A program made the position numbers and the translations under genes. From NCBI GenBank assembly GCA_944323445.1, contig CALUSM010000013.1, positions 1 to 62,087 on the forward strand: a DNA stretch of 62,087 nucleotides. The letters are read 5' to 3'. Shown here in pieces: positions 19,736 through 61,608 of this stretch (its first letter is position 1; every line of letters starts with the position of its first letter). The notes beneath the pieces are model-generated. The model made no database searches. It was not told the DNA's origin and was given only the letters and a program-made list of their open reading frames with translations. Origin of the DNA: an uncultured Bacteroidales bacterium (GTDB taxonomy: Bacteria; Bacteroidota; Bacteroidia; Bacteroidales; UBA932).

Positions 19736-21007
19736 ATGGCAATAACAATCGATACATTCCGGATACTGATAAGCGAGGGACAGGAACTTCTCAGAGACAT
19801 TGACCTGTATGACAGGCAGTTCGAATTTGAGGGCAGCGGCCGATACGTCCTTACAGGCGTGCGGCAGGCAGGCAAGTCCTACATGCTGTTCAAACGGGCA
19901 AGGCAGCTGATGTCCGAAGGCCGTCTCCCGGAAGAATTCATCTACATCGATTTCGACGACGAGCGTCTCATAGGAATGGATGCCGGCGACTTCGACACGA
20001 TACTCCAGGCATACAGAAGCACCGGCGGGCAAAAGCCGATACTGATGTTCGACGAGATACAGAACATAGAGGGCTGGGAGCATTTCGCCCGGAGACTTGC
20101 CAACCGGAAGTTTCAGGTATACATCACAGGAAGCAACGCTAAAATGCTCAGCCGGGACATACACACGACCCTCGGGGGCAGATACACGGAAGGGACGGTA
20201 TATCCCTACTCCTTCTCAGAGTATCTTGAGTCACAGGGCATTGTGCTTAGCCAGGGATGGGAATACAGTTCGGAGAGATTCAAGGTCATGGAAATGCTCT
20301 CCCAGTATCTCCTGTGGGGAGGATTCCCTGAGCTCATGCTTTTCAAGAACAAGAGACGGTGGCTGAACGACCTGTATGAGAAAATCCTGTTGAACGACAT
20401 AGTCGTCAGAGGCAGGATCCGCAATGAGACCGCCCTGCGGATGGTGTTCAAAAGACTCGCCGAGAGCATCGGAAAACCCATAGCCTACAACCGGATAGCC
20501 AACCTGATAAAAAGCACCGGAATCAACACTACCCCGGCATCGGTCATCCAGTATGTCGAAGCCGCCAAAGACGCATACATCCTCCTGCCCATTGAGAACT
20601 ACGCTACCAAATCTACGGAAAGGGAGACTGTCAAGAAGCATTACTTCATTGACAACGGCCTCCTGAGCATTTTCCTCAGCAACACTGCCGCCCCCCTGTT
20701 CGAAAACCTCTGCGCCGTCCACCTGAGCAGGACCTACGGAGACAAACTGTACTTCTACCACAAGAATACCGAAGTCGATTTCTACATACCGGAAGCCGGA
20801 TACGCCGTACAGGCCTGCGTCACGCTCAACGACCCCGACACAAAGGAGAGGGAGGTCAATGCGCTTGTCCGGCTGGACCGGGCCGAGAGCCTTTCGAGGA
20901 TGGTGATCGTCACCCGCGACGAAGAAGGCTCCATCCCCCTCCCCGACGGCAGGGCCATAGAAATACTTCCCGTCTGGAAATGGCTGCTGCAGAGCCGGGA
21001 CCTATAG
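19736..21007 (+). CDS. AAA_14/DUF4143 family ATPase
   Basis: A 423-residue cytoplasmic P-loop ATPase. Walker A is GVRQAGKS (41-48), Walker B-like ILMFDEIQNIEGWE near 101-114, followed by sensor-like ITGSNAKML and the family stretch GGRYTEGTVYPYSFSEY. The C-terminal DUF4143 part contains a PD-(D/E)XK-like fold (YHKNTEVDFYIP, then AVQACV). This family is abundant in Bacteroidota and its role is unknown. Expression is probably controlled through the palindromes just upstream. The last 6 bases (CTATAG) are shared with the end of the convergent beta-propeller gene. Confidence 0.87.
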   Translation: MAITIDTFRILISEGQELLRDIDLYDRQFEFEGSGRYVLTGVRQAGKSYMLFKRARQLMSEGRLPEEFIYIDFDDERLIGMDAGDFDTILQAYRSTGGQKPILMFDEIQNIEGWEHFARRLANRKFQVYITGSNAKMLSRDIHTTLGGRYTEGTVYPYSFSEYLESQGIVLSQGWEYSSERFKVMEMLSQYLLWGGFPELMLFKNKRRWLNDLYEKILLNDIVVRGRIRNETALRMVFKRLAESIGKPIAYNRIANLIKSTGINTTPASVIQYVEAAKDAYILLPIENYATKSTERETVKKHYFIDNGLLSIFLSNTAAPLFENLCAVHLSRTYGDKLYFYHKNTEVDFYIPEAGYAVQACVTLNDPDTKEREVNALVRLDRAESLSRMVIVTRDEEGSIPLPDGRAIEILPVWKWLLQSRDL

Positions 21008-22057
21008 CTCCATCTTCGCTAAATACATTATGCCGTCGCGGTCCATCACGGCAGCATAAATTGTATTCTCAGTCTCAGAATAACAAAGCCTTTCTATCTT
21101 ATAATCAGTGTGGATAAGCTCCAGAGGGTTGCCCTCCCAGTCGAAGACCGCTATCTTGGTGTAAGTCTGCCTGTCACCGCTGTTCCAATAGGGATTGACC
21201 TCCCCGTCATACGCTGCCAGAATCCTGTCGTCGAAAGCATATATGTCATAGAATCCCAGGACTGTCCGCTCATTGTAGTCATAGCCGCCGGAGGATACGT
21301 CAATGTCCGGCTCCTCAAATACTCTGACCGCTATAGGAGCTATGCTGTCCTGCCCGATGCCGTACGTTTCCAGCACAGTCCCATGCAATGTTCCTATAGC
21401 CAGACGGCTCTTGTCCGGTGATGCGGAGTAAGGCGTATACATGTACTCATAAAAACGCAGCTCCGGGTCGCTTACCGGGGAATAATCGTACTGACACAGA
21501 GTATGTCCAGCGCGGTCCTGGAGCTCAAACCTGCTTACCTCATGCAGGTCCGGACTTGAATAGCCGACATTCTTCATAAACAACCTGTTGTCTCCAGACT
21601 CCACCACACTCATTGTCCACGTAGGAGGATCATACCGCTCCTCCCTGTACAGAAAACTTCCGGCAAGTATCGAATCTATCTGATAACGGAGTATGCTCCC
21701 CTTCATGTCATCGTAATATGTCAGCACGCCATCGGCAAAATAAGTGTTTTGCAGCCCGCCTATGGTCTCACCCGGTCCGCGGCCGTCGCTGATACCGGAC
21801 CATATCCGCTTGCCGGTATTTTTGTCGTATATCCACAGATTGTGCCCCGTCTTCATGTCCGCCACTGGTACCAGCAGACAAGACTTGTACTCCCACAAAT
21901 CGTATACAACATTGACATACAACTCGTCTGAGACAAGTTCCCACCCGGCTTTCCGTTCTGTCGGGAACGTCACGGACAAAGATACCTCACCGGAACATGA
22001 AAATAGGAAAAATAAGGAAACTAGGATTGTTCCCTTACTAATATTCATCCATATCAT
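21002..22057 (-). CDS. 6-bladed beta-propeller lipoprotein (BF3164/TolB-like)
   Basis: A 351-residue lipoprotein. The lipobox LFSC places Cys21 as the lipidated residue (Cys18 if translation begins at the in-frame ATG 22048). The mature part shows repeated four-stranded blades, e.g. LWIYDKNTGKRIWSG, LTYYDDMKGSILRYQID, IYAFDDRILAAYDGE, IAVFDWEGNPLELI, as in the 6-bladed beta-propeller proteins common in Bacteroidales. Function is unknown. It is the last gene of a leftward unit with an NVEALA peptide and a CxxC lipoprotein, so it may bind or display the peptide outside the cell. It is convergent with the DUF4143 ATPase, sharing 6 bases. Confidence 0.8.
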   Translation of the reverse strand: MIWMNISKGTILVSLFFLFSCSGEVSLSVTFPTERKAGWELVSDELYVNVVYDLWEYKSCLLVPVADMKTGHNLWIYDKNTGKRIWSGISDGRGPGETIGGLQNTYFADGVLTYYDDMKGSILRYQIDSILAGSFLYREERYDPPTWTMSVVESGDNRLFMKNVGYSSPDLHEVSRFELQDRAGHTLCQYDYSPVSDPELRFYEYMYTPYSASPDKSRLAIGTLHGTVLETYGIGQDSIAPIAVRVFEEPDIDVSSGGYDYNERTVLGFYDIYAFDDRILAAYDGEVNPYWNSGDRQTYTKIAVFDWEGNPLELIHTDYKIERLCYSETENTIYAAVMDRDGIMYLAKMEL

Positions 22058-22087
22058 AAATGTGAAAATACAGTTTAAGGCCCGATA

Positions 22088-22375
22088 TTATTTTTCAATT
22101 ACTGATTGAGAGCATGTACAATTGGTCAGTTTACCAGGTCCTTTATATCCTTTTGCCCAGACCTCATTACCACAATTTGGACAAATTGCATCGCAATACG
22201 GGTCAACTGTGCCACATGTTCCCCAATGCTCGACACCTGCCAACGCTTCCACATTGGTTTCGAAAAGTCCGCCGTCAGATTCAGCGTTACTCTGAGATAT
22301 CGCACAGATACTCAGGAAAAGAGAAAGAGTGAGGGCTACCGCCCCTCCGAGAATGAGAATAATTGTCTTCTTCAT
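22088..22375 (-). CDS. NVEALA family secreted Cys-rich peptide
   Basis: A 95-residue precursor. A hydrophobic export segment (about residues 4-27) is followed by a short acidic stretch and the family-naming NVEALA motif (about 41-46). The remainder is a small domain with six cysteines, including CPNC and CTC, and no other hydrophobic region. It belongs to the NVEALA family of Bacteroidota, small exported proteins of unknown function. The layout (leader, conserved motif, Cys-rich core) recalls a processed peptide. Neighbours in the same direction are a CxxC lipoprotein upstream (53 bases) and the propeller lipoprotein downstream (30 bases). Confidence 0.82.
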   Translation of the reverse strand: MKKTIILILGGAVALTLSLFLSICAISQSNAESDGGLFETNVEALAGVEHWGTCGTVDPYCDAICPNCGNEVWAKGYKGPGKLTNCTCSQSVIEK

Positions 22376-22428
22376 TGCTGCTTGATTTTAAAATTAATAT
22401 TTGATTTATCTGTTTTTGCGCAAAACAT

Positions 22429-22986
22429 TCATTTGGCAATACTTTCAAGTACCTTTTCAAAAGCTGTCCTAAGGTCCTCGCTCATTGAAGGATTGCCCAC
22501 ATACACTATCTTCCCTGCACTGTCTGTCAAAAATGTGTGAAAACGCACATCCTCCGGGATGAAACTGTTGGCTTTCCTGAAACGTCCGTCGAAATCTATA
22601 TACACCGGATACGGGAACCTGTGTATATCCAGCAGCCGCCTCACGACTTCGTAATCTTCAGGCTTCGGAGAGAATATGGTCAATACTTCAAATGTACCAT
22701 CCTCTGAACTCTTGCGGTAGAGCCATTCTATGCTGGTAAGATGTGCAATTTCGCAGTCGCTGCATGATGCAGAATCATAGTAGAATATCAACTTAGGCAG
22801 GTCAGACTTGTCTTTATAGAAAAAGACACCCGCAGTATCGACTCCCTGCATGCCGGCCGGAGTCACAACTGTATTCGACATAAACGTCCTCAGTTCCCTG
22901 CGCAACAAGACAGTTTCCCGCGAAGCACATGTGCAAATCAGCACAGGACCTATCATAAATATCAATATGCGGGAGAGAAGTTTCAT
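22429..22986 (-). CDS. Thioredoxin-like lipoprotein with CSDC motif
   Basis: A 185-residue exported protein. The N-terminus is a signal with cysteines at 18 and 20, one of which is probably lipidated, although the lipobox is not ideal. PKLIFYYDSASCSDCEIAHL holds C75 and C78 at the end of a beta strand, as in thioredoxin folds. FPYPVYIDFDGRF and FLTDSAGKIVYVGNP resemble the later strands of TlpA-like oxidoreductases. I infer a redox role, possibly on the Cys-rich NVEALA peptide encoded next. It is the first gene of the leftward unit. Confidence 0.72.
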   Translation of the reverse strand: MKLLSRILIFMIGPVLICTCASRETVLLRRELRTFMSNTVVTPAGMQGVDTAGVFFYKDKSDLPKLIFYYDSASCSDCEIAHLTSIEWLYRKSSEDGTFEVLTIFSPKPEDYEVVRRLLDIHRFPYPVYIDFDGRFRKANSFIPEDVRFHTFLTDSAGKIVYVGNPSMSEDLRTAFEKVLESIAK

Positions 22987-23000
22987 AGTCGTTTTGTTTT

Positions 23001-23008
23001 CAAAGATA
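23001..23008 (-). promoter_or_regulatory. -7 promoter box of the NVEALA operon
   Basis: TATCTTTG on the minus strand, 14 bases before the ATG at 22986. No other good box is seen before the NVEALA or propeller genes, so the three are probably one transcript. Confidence 0.55.
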
Positions 23009-23059
23009 TTGCATTGTTTTCAAATAGACAACTTTTCTTTTACTTTGCAGGTAGAATTT

Positions 23060-23845
23060 ATGAAAATACCTACCACAAAGATTATACGGATTATCCTTCT
23101 CATGGCACTGGCAACAGCTGCCTTGGCTGTAACGATTCCGGTATTCCTGACCGACCGCTTCACTATCAGAGGCGGCTCCATGCTTCCTACCCTGCATGAC
23201 GGACAGCACGTCTTCGTGAACAAACTGCTGATGGGTGCCCGCATCTATACCAAATACGACTTCTCGGACCCGGTGATGGAGTCTTTCCGGATGCCCGGAC
23301 TCAGGAATGTCCGGCCGGAAGACATCGTCATATTCAACTACCCATACCCTGACTCAACCGGCAAAATTCACTTCCGGATCAACTACGTCTACGCAAAGAG
23401 ATGCATAGGAAGGTCTGGCGACACTGTGGGCATCCGCAACGGATACTACTACAACTCCTCGCTGCCGGCAACAGTTATCGGAGCTGAGCGGTATCAGAGA
23501 TGGCTTTCCCGCAGACCTGACTCAGTACTCAAAGCCGATACCGTCCTGAGGTTCGAAGCAGCCGTCTTGCCGGACGGAACCGTCTGGACTATCAAAGATT
23601 ACGGGCCGCTGTACATACCGGGTGCAGGAGACACCATAAGGCTTACCGAAAACAATATCTTCCTGTACGGCAGACTCATCGAGTATGAAACAGGAGACAT
23701 GCCCGATGCAGACTCCGTCTCATGCTATACCTTCCGCAGCGACTATTGCTTCCTCGCCGGAGACAACGTCCTCAACTCCATGGACAGCCGGTACATCGGC
23801 CTCATCCCCGAAGCCTTCATCGTCGGTATCGCTGCCTGGAAATAA
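23060..23845 (+). CDS. lepB: Signal peptidase I (S26)
   Basis: A 261-residue type I signal peptidase with one N-terminal transmembrane segment (about 8-29) and a periplasmic catalytic domain. The serine is S40 in IRGGSMLPTL and the lysine K113 in YAKRCIGRSGD. The GDNVLNSMDSRYIG box is near the C-terminus. An upstream in-frame extension exists but runs through the divergent promoter region and has no homology, so I start at ATG 23060. Divergent from the NVEALA operon, with 73 bases between start codons. It could be a general enzyme or one dedicated to that operon. Confidence 0.9.
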   Translation: MKIPTTKIIRIILLMALATAALAVTIPVFLTDRFTIRGGSMLPTLHDGQHVFVNKLLMGARIYTKYDFSDPVMESFRMPGLRNVRPEDIVIFNYPYPDSTGKIHFRINYVYAKRCIGRSGDTVGIRNGYYYNSSLPATVIGAERYQRWLSRRPDSVLKADTVLRFEAAVLPDGTVWTIKDYGPLYIPGAGDTIRLTENNIFLYGRLIEYETGDMPDADSVSCYTFRSDYCFLAGDNVLNSMDSRYIGLIPEAFIVGIAAWK

Positions 23846-58986: not shown

Positions 58987-60552
58987 ATGGACACACAGCA
59001 GAGACTCTACCCGGTAGGACGGCAGGACTTCGCCGAGATAAGGACAGAGGGCAACTTCTTGTATATCGACAAGACGGAGTACGTCTACAGAATGACTCAC
59101 TCCAGCGCCAAATTCACCTTCCTGAGCCGCCCGAGGAGGTTCGGCAAGTCGCTCCTCGTGTCCACACTGAAATATTACTTCCAGGGCAGGAAGGAACTGT
59201 TCCAGGGGCTGTCCATAGATGCTTTGGAAAAGAATTGGACTACATATCCGGTGCTGCACTTCGACATGAGCATCGCAAAGCACATGGAGAAAGAGCAGTT
59301 GGAGGCGGCATTGGGCAACCAGCTCTCGTGGCACGAGAAGGAATACGGAATAGTTCCCGAAGATAAAGACTCCAACCTCAGGCTGAAAAATCTGATAGAG
59401 ACCGCTTACAGGAAGACCAGACAGAGGGTTGTTATTCTGATTGACGAATACGACGCACCCCTACTGGATGTGGTGCACGAGGACACTACCCTGCCGGTGC
59501 TCCGCAACGTCATGCGCAACTTCTACAGCCCGCTCAAGGCCTGCGATCCGTATCTCCGCTTCGTCTTCATGACCGGCATCACCAAGTTCTCCCAGCTCAG
59601 CATCTTCAGCGAGCTCAACAACCTGGAGAACATCAGCATGCTGGAGCAGTACGCAGCCGTATGCGGCATCTCCGAGGAAGAGATGCTCACCCAGATGAGT
59701 CCGGACATCGACAGACTGGCCCAGAGGCTGGAGCTCAGCCGCGAGGAAACACTGGACAAGCTGAAATCCAAATACGACGGCTACCACTTCACCTGGCCCT
59801 CCCCCGACATCTACAACCCGTTCAGCCTCCTCAGGGCCTTCGCCAACGCAAAGCTCGACTCCTACTGGTTCGGCAGCGGCACACCGACCTACCTGATAGA
59901 GATGATGAGAAAATTCCACGTCACACCCTCACGCATAGGAGGAAACTCAGCCCCTGCCCCGGCGTTTGATGCCCCGACGGAGAGAATGACGGAGATAACC
60001 CCGCTGCTGTATCAGAGCGGCTACATCACCATCAAGGCATACGACCGGATAATTGACCTCTACACGCTGGATATTCCCAACAACGAGGTGCGCATAGGCC
60101 TGATGCGCTCCCTCCTGCCCTACTATGTCACCCCTCCGTGCACCACCGAGGCTTCAACCACCGTCGCCAGAATATACGGAGCCATCCTGAACGAGGACCT
60201 CGACGGCGCCCTCCGCCTCCTCCAGACCTTCCTCGGCACCGTCCCGTACACCGACAACACCGGTTACGAGGGCCACTGGCAGCAGATGCTCTACATCATC
60301 TTCTCCCTTCTCGGCTACTACGTAGACGTGGAGGTGCGCACCCCGAAAGGCAGGGTGGACATGGTCATGCGCACCGCCACTAAACTTTACTTAGTGGAGC
60401 TGAAGCTCGACGCCGGCGCGGATGCCGCCATGCAGCAGATCGACCTGAAGCAGTATCCCGAACGCTTCGCCCTCTGCGGCCTGCCCGTCGTCAAGGTCGC
60501 AATCGACTTCGACCGGGAGGCACACAACATCTCCGGCTGGAAGATTTCATAG
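58987..60552 (+). CDS. AAA-ATPase-like / PD-(D/E)XK nuclease-fold protein, copy 2
   Basis: A 521-residue paralogue of the protein at 23896-25458, with the same architecture: MDTQQRLYPVG start, P-loop RPRRFGKS, VILIDEYDAPLLDVVHEDT and a C-terminal nuclease fold with GRVDMVM and VELK. I start at ATG 58987, which gives the same N-terminus as the paralogue; ATG 58981 is also possible. DNA identity to copy 1 is high in the middle and C-terminal parts but low around residues 85-135 and 300-400. It is convergent with the second beta-propeller gene, sharing 6 bases. Confidence 0.85.
   Translation: MDTQQRLYPVGRQDFAEIRTEGNFLYIDKTEYVYRMTHSSAKFTFLSRPRRFGKSLLVSTLKYYFQGRKELFQGLSIDALEKNWTTYPVLHFDMSIAKHMEKEQLEAALGNQLSWHEKEYGIVPEDKDSNLRLKNLIETAYRKTRQRVVILIDEYDAPLLDVVHEDTTLPVLRNVMRNFYSPLKACDPYLRFVFMTGITKFSQLSIFSELNNLENISMLEQYAAVCGISEEEMLTQMSPDIDRLAQRLELSREETLDKLKSKYDGYHFTWPSPDIYNPFSLLRAFANAKLDSYWFGSGTPTYLIEMMRKFHVTPSRIGGNSAPAPAFDAPTERMTEITPLLYQSGYITIKAYDRIIDLYTLDIPNNEVRIGLMRSLLPYYVTPPCTTEASTTVARIYGAILNEDLDGALRLLQTFLGTVPYTDNTGYEGHWQQMLYIIFSLLGYYVDVEVRTPKGRVDMVMRTATKLYLVELKLDAGADAAMQQIDLKQYPERFALCGLPVVKVAIDFDREAHNISGWKIS
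59614..59670 (+). repeat. 57-bp exact match to the paralogue at 24520-24576
   Basis: Same orientation and reading frame as the match in copy 1; exact over all 57 bases. Confidence 0.9.
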
Positions 60553-61608
60553 CAGATCATAGCGGTAAAGACGGGCGGCTGCGCAGTCCCCGCCGGCATC
60601 CGCCCAGACATATACGGACTTGCCGTCCGCCGACAGGGAGAGAGTCCTGACCCTGCAGTCCAGTCTGTAGGTGCCGAGAATATTGCCGTCCCAGTCAAAA
60701 CGGAAGATAAAGTCGGAGTCCGGAGAGTCCACGTGACGGTAAGCGGCGAGCACCTGCGAACCGTCGGAGGCCGCACAGGTATAGCGGGCGGCAGGATCTG
60801 CTTTACGGTACACAGATACCACTCCTTCATTTCCTGGAACAAACACATACTCCGGTGCGGAAAAATCAGGCCCGGTCATGATCCTCACCGGCCTGGAGAG
60901 ATCTCCGTCATAAAGCTCGGCCATCGAAGAATTGCCGTCGAAAAAGAACACCCTTCCCCTTTCCGCATCCGCCGCCAGACTTCCCTGAGTCACATTTGTG
61001 GGAAAATACTCCGTTTCCGGCACCGTCCACTGCCAGGAGGTATCCGTAACGGCCAGGCGCGGCTGACGGTTGGAGTGTCCGCTGCTGTCCTCGAAATAAC
61101 GGGGATTAAGCATCAGGATACGGTCGTCGTAACCGGTAAAAGCCTGCGCCACATAGCTGACGGCTGCCGTTGGACGGATGTCCTCAAGCCAGTCCTTCCG
61201 CCGCGCGTCCGGCCCCAGGACGACGAACTGCTTCTTGACTATATCGAAGAGTATGAGGCTGTCTCCGCCCAACGCGCTCTGCATGTAAAAGAACTCCCCG
61301 GCCCCTGAGCCGTAGGGCAGAGCCGTTCCGAGGACAGACCAGTCCTGAATACGGAAGACCTCGAGGATATCCATGCACTCCTTGCCGTCAGCAGTATTCA
61401 GCACTATCGCCAGGCTGTCCCGCCAGACGTACACCGAGGATTCAAAGCCGTCGGGGACATATTCCAAGGCCCGTGGAGAAAGCCGCACGGCATTTTCAAG
61501 AAGGTCGTTTTCAAGCACATCGCTGACAGCCTGCGCCCGGCAGGATACCGCCGCGCAGAACGGGATAAGCGACAGCAGAATGGAGAAAATTGGTTTCAGT
61601 GTTTTCAT
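60547..61608 (-). CDS. 6-bladed beta-propeller exported protein
   Basis: A 353-residue protein with a signal region (1-28; Cys23 in AVSC could be lipidated, or signal peptidase I may cut after RAQA). The rest shows repeated propeller-type strands (SLILFDIVKKQFVVLGPD, VFFFDGNSSMAELYDGD, FIFRFDWDGNILGTYRLD, SVYVWADAGGD), with the same general plan as the lipoprotein at 21002-22057, though no long identity is visible. It follows a TonB-dependent receptor by 14 bases, so the pair may bind a shared ligand. Confidence 0.77.
   Translation of the reverse strand: MKTLKPIFSILLSLIPFCAAVSCRAQAVSDVLENDLLENAVRLSPRALEYVPDGFESSVYVWRDSLAIVLNTADGKECMDILEVFRIQDWSVLGTALPYGSGAGEFFYMQSALGGDSLILFDIVKKQFVVLGPDARRKDWLEDIRPTAAVSYVAQAFTGYDDRILMLNPRYFEDSSGHSNRQPRLAVTDTSWQWTVPETEYFPTNVTQGSLAADAERGRVFFFDGNSSMAELYDGDLSRPVRIMTGPDFSAPEYVFVPGNEGVVSVYRKADPAARYTCAASDGSQVLAAYRHVDSPDSDFIFRFDWDGNILGTYRLDCRVRTLSLSADGKSVYVWADAGGDCAAARLYRYDLL

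Follow-up and report, generated by a model that had tools for sequence, protein, structure and literature searches.

What might a short cysteine-rich peptide gene be doing between genes for a redoxin-like protein and a propeller lipoprotein, with a signal peptidase gene alongside? The question is raised by a locus in a 62,087-nucleotide stretch of an uncultured Bacteroidales bacterium (GTDB UBA932; assembly GCA_944323445.1, contig CALUSM010000013.1), the whole of which is here called the window; it is contig C13 of genome G000, which is 2.29 Mb in size and 89% complete. An earlier note on this DNA had described three short-spaced leftward genes and a divergent signal peptidase I gene, and this layout is confirmed by the open reading frames (ORFs) and their coordinates: a redoxin-like CxxC protein (R), an NVEALA-type peptide (N) and a beta-propeller lipoprotein (P) are encoded leftward, with gaps of 53 nt between R and N and 30 nt between N and P, and the gene for an accessory signal peptidase I (S) diverges from them. 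The locus may specify a secreted disulfide-rich peptide, along with genes dedicated to its maturation and a partner specific to it, a proposal for which we regard the case as evenly balanced. Its parts are as follows.

22429..22986 (-): R, redoxin/thioredoxin-like protein, predicted to be exported, 185 aa, with a CSDC motif (ORF; PF08534 at 19.5 bits, below cut-off)
22088..22375 (-): N, NVEALA-type precursor, 95 aa (ORF, Pfam, leave-out profile)
22375-22238 (-): N leader, residues 1-46, of which 41-46 are NVEALA
22237-22091 (-): N core, residues 47-95, with six cysteines
21002..22057 (-): P, beta-propeller lipoprotein, TolB_like, 351 aa, with a lipobox-like FSC (PF15869 at 48.4 bits)
23060..23845 (+): S, accessory signal peptidase I, 261 aa, with GGSMLPTL, AKRCIG and GDNVLNSMDSRYIG (PF10502, TIGR02227)
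23001..23008 (-): -7 promoter box TATCTTTG upstream of R-N-P

Linkage of the four genes across genomes

The Pfam model of the NVEALA family, PF14055, whose description names no role, was searched at E <=0.01 in 149 genomes of the same taxonomic family and matched in 17 of them (11 over the curated cut-off); an order-wide search at E <=0.001 was positive in 16 of 295 genomes. Neighbourhoods comprised the DNA surrounding these matches and that surrounding accessory signal peptidases, with genes labelled by local profiles. The next gene was defined as the next labelled gene or same-strand ORF of at least 130 aa, and the rule was applied to 80 peptides, those of the window and its sister species included. 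P was the next same-strand gene for 65 of the 80. The remaining 15 were followed by another N (five), an unlabelled gene (four), R (two), an opposite-strand gene (two) or a contig end (two); in two of the five N-then-N cases, the rule skips an ORF (359 or 405 aa) that begins inside the peptide ORF. The gene order was N-P-R in 24 loci and R-N-P in 12, among them the window and its sister, while N-P-R-S was co-directional in L068, L071, L072, L105, L108, L139, L147 and L148. An order-level sample of 20 stretches, drawn from 11 of the 16 positive genomes, held N and P in all 20 and N, P, R and S in eight. This is the neighbourhood survey by which the earlier note had proposed that its reading could fail, and it found the linkage to be conserved. 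In the same-genus sister genome G005, a 7136-base contig carries the same genes, and S is divergent there too.

Copy numbers show how the genes are shared out. In the 17 family loci with at least two N, the totals were N 49, P 47, R 21, S 8 and W 10 (W, a Wzy_C ligase), S and W being undercounted because many contigs are short. N and P are thus present at about 1:1 in arrays, in which R and S are common to several pairs, and up to nine peptides lie on one contig stretch. The Wzy_C ligase follows N-P-R-S in L068, L072 and L105 and is not in view in L071 or L108 (window's genus); it was rejected as a required part, there being no match at E <=0.001 in G000 and G010. An RND-TolC exporter was also weighed as a fixed partner; MFP/RND-type genes occur in 5 or 6 of the 31 loci with S, and the exporter is therefore kept as a lead. 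TolC/MFP/RND efflux genes do lie near S in, for example, L059, L067 and L142, where they might offer an exit route. A lipoprotein of ~650 aa also recurs (24 genes in 21 loci, e.g. L130 3568-5526 (-)), with a motif like AL..AG.NR.EL..VL.HY and a weak F5/8 type C match only.

The association of N with signal peptidases (SPases) was assessed in 19 genomes, namely G005, the window's own and the 17 PF14055-positive family genomes. A single long frame for the housekeeping LepB (437-510 aa) is present in each except G085, and the other 27 SPase places are shorter accessory frames, including one 66-aa fragment and one frame with an internal stop. N was found on 15 of the 27 accessory stretches and on none of the 18 housekeeping stretches (p 6e-5, same profiles), with a sixteenth, G140:C533, carrying N by Pfam match only, and at least one of N, P and R on 20 of 27 versus 2 of 18, counts that are biased toward the accessory side because the profiles were built from loci partly chosen for these genes. 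By genome, an accessory SPase is present in all 15 genomes whose N is convincing (the window's and 14 of the 17 PF14055-positive ones) versus about 4 of the 134 others (p 3e-17 over the 149 family genomes, uncorrected for kinship), the class in N-negative genomes being assigned from match counts, of which two are usual. The exceptions are G094, G124 and G128, with more than two SPase matches, and G104, with two LepB-like frames. G070, G080 and G109 (E 0.0006 to 0.007, in frames of 162-390 aa) yielded no peptide by local profile and were rejected as N genomes and left out of the strict count. Counting these three doubtful genomes as positive gives 15/18 versus 4/131 (p 2e-14); removing 12 match-less genomes and counting two unclear single matches against the association gives 15/15 versus 6/122 (p 1e-15). 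The N and SPase surveys were taken as one draw of genomes, the genome labels being identical.

The peptide and its candidate maturation proteins

The window peptide has the NVEALA organisation, with an N-terminal hydrophobic leader, the motif at its end and then a variable core, and it carries one further cysteine within the leader. A profile built without the window and sister peptides scores it at 31.6 bits, compared with a maximum of 17.8 in 500 copies shuffled after residue 28. It resembles members of the Bacteroidota family PF14055 in leader organisation, motif and neighbourhood, having the same P, R and S partners as members over the cut-off, but those members pass the cut-off, whereas the window peptide reaches 14.8 of 27 bits (14.5 in the genome search). 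Pfam alone was therefore rejected as an NVEALA finder, as it misses the window peptide and gives doubtful matches in longer ORFs.

Motif and cysteine statistics were compiled for the 70 peptides with a recognisable motif, ten motif-less peptides being left out. The last motif residue was A in 52, S in 10, T in 6, I in 1 and V in 1, and the NVEALA end fits the AxA rule, as would be predicted for a signal peptidase site. Between the best 15-residue hydrophobic window and the motif end lie a median of 24 residues (range 3-27), a greater distance than that of a usual signal-peptide site. Cysteine makes up 9.3% of the cores as opposed to 1.5% of the larger ORFs of the same loci, and the core cysteine count is even in 55 of the 70 peptides (binomial p 2e-6, paralogues not being independent), which fits disulfides.

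Of the proteins encoded around N, S passes both curated models (PF10502 at 84.8 bits, TIGR02227 at 85.3 bits), its best start is at 23060, and its boxes, read by eye, presumably hold the catalytic Ser and Lys. P passes the cut-off of PF15869, the TolB-like propeller model (29.2 bits). An AlphaFold2 (AF2) model of P is of low confidence (mean pLDDT 61, pTM 0.66); it gave 541 matches in the PDB at E <=0.001, with a query TM of 0.34-0.51 among the 50 matches listed, many of which are propellers as judged by title, and the model supports the word propeller and nothing finer. Solved structures were searched by sequence without a match, whether the query was the window propeller itself, its five-member alignment or a stronger propeller from the family. 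A second propeller-like protein is indicated by local profile at 60547-61608 (-) of the window, where no Pfam match was found at E <=0.01.

R has a CxxC active site (CSDC), lies below the Pfam redoxin cut-off of 26.6 bits and has a weak sequence match to a solved thioredoxin-like protein (E 0.0015). As a lipobox, ICTC in the window is a poor match and VCSC in the sister species a better one. AF2 gave a redoxin model (mean pLDDT 50) that was too poor to judge the fold and was not used. CxxC is present in 36 of 43 linked R, the rest being mostly truncated or misaligned frames, and a C-terminal DUF1573 was found in two of three other R examined. Upstream, the -7 box lies 14 nt from the redoxin ATG, and no exact TAnnTTTG occurs in the two intergenic gaps among R, N and P; the pattern occurs 39 times in the window versus 15 expected, and this box by itself is therefore weak proof of a promoter.

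Set against the earlier note, these results uphold the 95-residue NVEALA precursor with six core cysteines, on its sequence and the leave-out profile, and the propeller lipoprotein, on the PF15869 score and the FSC. The CxxC motif of the third protein stands, with the caveat of its poor lipobox, and the single -7 box ahead of all three genes is there as described.

No PADLOC match at E <=0.001 was found for the four module proteins, and a defence function for the module was rejected on that basis. The AAA_14/DUF4143 gene that adjoins the module (window 19736-21007 (+)) matches the PADLOC candidate defence family PDC-S01 at 314.6 bits, and its protein is 99% identical in the sister species.

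Peptide-propeller pairing and the diversity block

The near-equal numbers of N and P are matched by co-divergence. Among 49 N-P pairs passing length filters, core similarity correlated with P similarity (r 0.39, or 0.37 with leader similarity removed), compared with 0.18 for leader and P, and the core-P correlation was reached in 0 of 2000 permutations, also when P was permuted only within genomes. The propeller could be a peptide-specific partner, which might equally be an immunity protein, a receptor or a carrier.

Comparison of the window with G005 shows the peptide core and propeller as a strongly diverged block between similar flanks.

21002..22240: diversity block, peptide core and propeller, with synonymous sites saturated or nearly so versus the sister species
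22807..22986: second diverged block, R codons 1-60

Counted per 100 bases, nucleotide identity is high in S (94-100%), in the AAA_14 flank (97-100%) and in mid-R (95-96%), and drops in R codons 1-60 (60-72%) and across the peptide core and propeller (45-83%). Synonymous divergence (dS), computed with our own Nei-Gojobori script, is 0.12 in S, 0.04 in the AAA_14 gene, 0.17 in a GH92 gene, 0.18 in R from codon 61 and 0.42 in the N leader, compared with 1.6 in R codons 1-60; it reaches saturation in the peptide core and in mid-P, and elsewhere in P it is 1.6-1.9. The ratio of nonsynonymous (dN) to synonymous divergence over the whole of P is 0.09. Because dN/dS is low and synonymous change is at or near saturation, rapid positive selection was discarded as an explanation of the block; judged from these substitution patterns, the block resembles old alleles that were brought into a common background and not quick adaptive change. 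The step in divergence inside R near 22806, between codons 1-60 and the rest, marks a recombination boundary within the gene.

A propeller search of named genomes found contigs of Candidatus Coprenecus merdipullorum, C. merdigallinarum and one uncultured Bacteroidales bacterium, all metagenome-assembled genomes (MAGs). Two further loci, L127 and L128, lie at the window's site and have propellers (L127 8826-12415; L128 7359-8435), with no N, R or S within the 17-18 kb covered. The start of the L128 propeller and that of the second L127 propeller align with the start of N; the L127 alignment extends to the last bases of R, and L128 retains the promoter stretch around the -7 box. We read these alignments as probable scars of N loss. 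Between the first L127 propeller and that of L128, dS is 0.40 and dN 0.07, and P is thus still constrained without N.

Mechanism, rival readings and meaning

In the mechanism that we propose, N would be exported by Sec through its N-terminal hydrophobic stretch, the accessory signal peptidase would cut after NVEALA according to the AxA rule, ~24 residues beyond that stretch, and R would form or shuffle disulfides among the mostly even-numbered core cysteines. The released peptide would then be recognised by the propeller lipoprotein of the adjoining gene. N and P would be inherited and exchanged as a unit, and R and S, elsewhere also the Wzy_C ligase, would serve several such pairs. The maturation-and-display module of the earlier note is carried forward in its first half, for which linkage, parity and motif end speak, and display found no specific support. 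Oxidation of the peptide by the CxxC protein would agree with the even counts and the widespread CxxC, and leader removal by the peptidase with the motif end and the accessory SPase association; the propeller that was to hold or sense the product narrows, on 1:1 copy number and co-divergence, to a probable peptide-specific partner, which may equally give immunity, act as receptor or act as carrier.

Several observations weigh against this proposal. The window peptide lies under the PF14055 cut-off. The third-last motif residue was a selection criterion and seeds required A or S at the last, so the AxA fit is only partly independent. Core cysteine counts are odd in 15 of 70 peptides, and one of the even cores has zero cysteines, being cut by a contig end. 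The linked redoxins lack the cis-proline of thioredoxins, and an oxidase role is thus not assured. By profile, 12 of the 27 accessory SPases have no N (G140:C533, with its Pfam match, among them), many N stretches, often on short contigs, have no S in view, and the cell holds another processing route in a C39-peptidase match outside the window. Shared inheritance or linkage alone can also yield N-P co-divergence, at least in part, and the weaker leader-P correlation could stem from leader conservation.

As to role, we tentatively favour a peptide that acts between bacteria, with P protecting the producer as an immunity-type partner, a reading held with more doubt than trust; the 1:1 pairing, the multiplicity of pairs in a genome, the allele blocks and the survival of orphan partners lean this way, but much of this evidence also fits signalling, which we rank after it and consider rather doubtful. 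A wider proposal, that this is an order-wide Sec/signal-peptidase pathway serving diverse disulfide peptides, in which the dedicated S paralogue reads NVEALA as a displaced site and each peptide, with its own propeller as immunity protein or receptor, recombines as an allele block, partly under a shared periplasmic sensor-regulator family, is possible and falls short of an even prospect. The regulators in question are divergent sensor genes that adjoin eleven N clusters, six of them one-component membrane proteins and five histidine kinase/response regulator (HK/RR) pairs.

L079, L131, L132, L133, L136, L139: one-component membrane regulators
L120 (twice), L143, L144, L145: HK/RR pairs

Of two one-component regulators compared with Pfam, one has a winged-helix match just below cut-off and one has no match. 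When the one-component and HK/RR kinds are compared as profiles, 180 columns align, in their N-terminal, mostly periplasmic parts (probability 95.8).

These regulators and their shared N-terminal parts favour a peptide pheromone with its receptor, in which the mature peptide is the signal, the propeller binds it and the membrane regulators respond. Of the eleven, however, three belong to a single family genome (G119) and eight to the 20 order-level stretches, no divergent sensor regulator is in view in the window, and arrays of up to nine peptides would be unusual for a signal; we think this account unlikely. Somewhat less probable still is an envelope or stress factor, with N as a structural or redox-buffering surface component and P as its carrier or scaffold: the cysteine-rich cores would suit it, and a task at the envelope is suggested by partners with Wzy_C ligase and DUF1573 domains, but core diversity with 1:1 partners and allele blocks would not be expected of a structural role.

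It is also conceivable, if improbable, that S is a mere neighbour and that a general LepB or another protease processes N. The divergent rather than co-directional S of window and sister, the many N stretches lacking S in view and the C39 peptidase gene elsewhere in the genome would be in keeping with this, whereas by both genome and locus N associates with accessory and not with housekeeping SPases, and in eight loci N-P-R-S is co-directional. That the diverged block reflects misassembly or chimeric binning rather than allele exchange gains from the three named comparison contigs being MAGs; it seems very improbable given the intact ORFs, the low dN/dS of the block, the conserved gene order and the two further genomes with different states at the same site.

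Known systems offer partial parallels. Pneumococcal blp-type bacteriocin clusters are like the module in that numerous small peptides share one leader, are accompanied by partner genes and a regulator and are processed in common, and unlike it in their ABC exporter, double-glycine (GG) processing and Gram-positive host. Closer to hand, PMC6671954 describes the bacteroidetocins, proposed as class IIf, as short Bacteroidales peptides with four cysteines, a 15-aa GG leader and a peptidase-ABC transporter, and with no immunity protein found. According to the same paper, deletion of an adjoining thiol oxidoreductase gene attenuates their activity, their disulfides were inferred from gel migration, and general disulfide machinery is stated to be lacking in Bacteroides (PMC6671954). 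On that account, short cysteine peptides with a co-encoded thiol oxidoreductase set a precedent for R, and the module differs in its long hydrophobic leader, signal peptidase I and paired propeller. The window peptide has a 46-aa leader rather than the short GG type, and its GG at 35-36 is not kept in the sister. No peptidase-C39 ABC transporter was found at the locus; the sole C39 match of the genome lies on C22, the window being C13, and this domain (G000:C22:9701-10102 (+), in a 758-aa frame) might provide a second peptide export route in the host.

In Bacteroides thetaiotaomicron, BT0663 may, at a guess, be an NVEALA peptide. The gene table of PMC10434189 annotates BT0662-BT0669 as O-antigen ligase, hypothetical, 6-bladed beta-propeller, signal peptidase I and RND adaptor, which by those annotations is the same kind of neighbourhood. 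It was the one relevant result of literature searches for the module under other words, and no paper with the term 'NVEALA' was found, in a coverage that leaves out most subscription journals and preprints, where an account of the module may exist.

NVEALA peptides, 6-bladed propeller lipoproteins, extra LepB paralogues and DUF1573-redoxins have so far been separate 'unknowns' in Bacteroidales. If they belong to one pathway, a block of unknown genes gains a single testable function. If the proposal is true, accessory signal peptidases would gain a function, peptide-partner specificity would be directly measurable, and the Bacteroidales would have a second disulfide peptide system beside the bacteroidetocins, with another leader, another protease and another partner.

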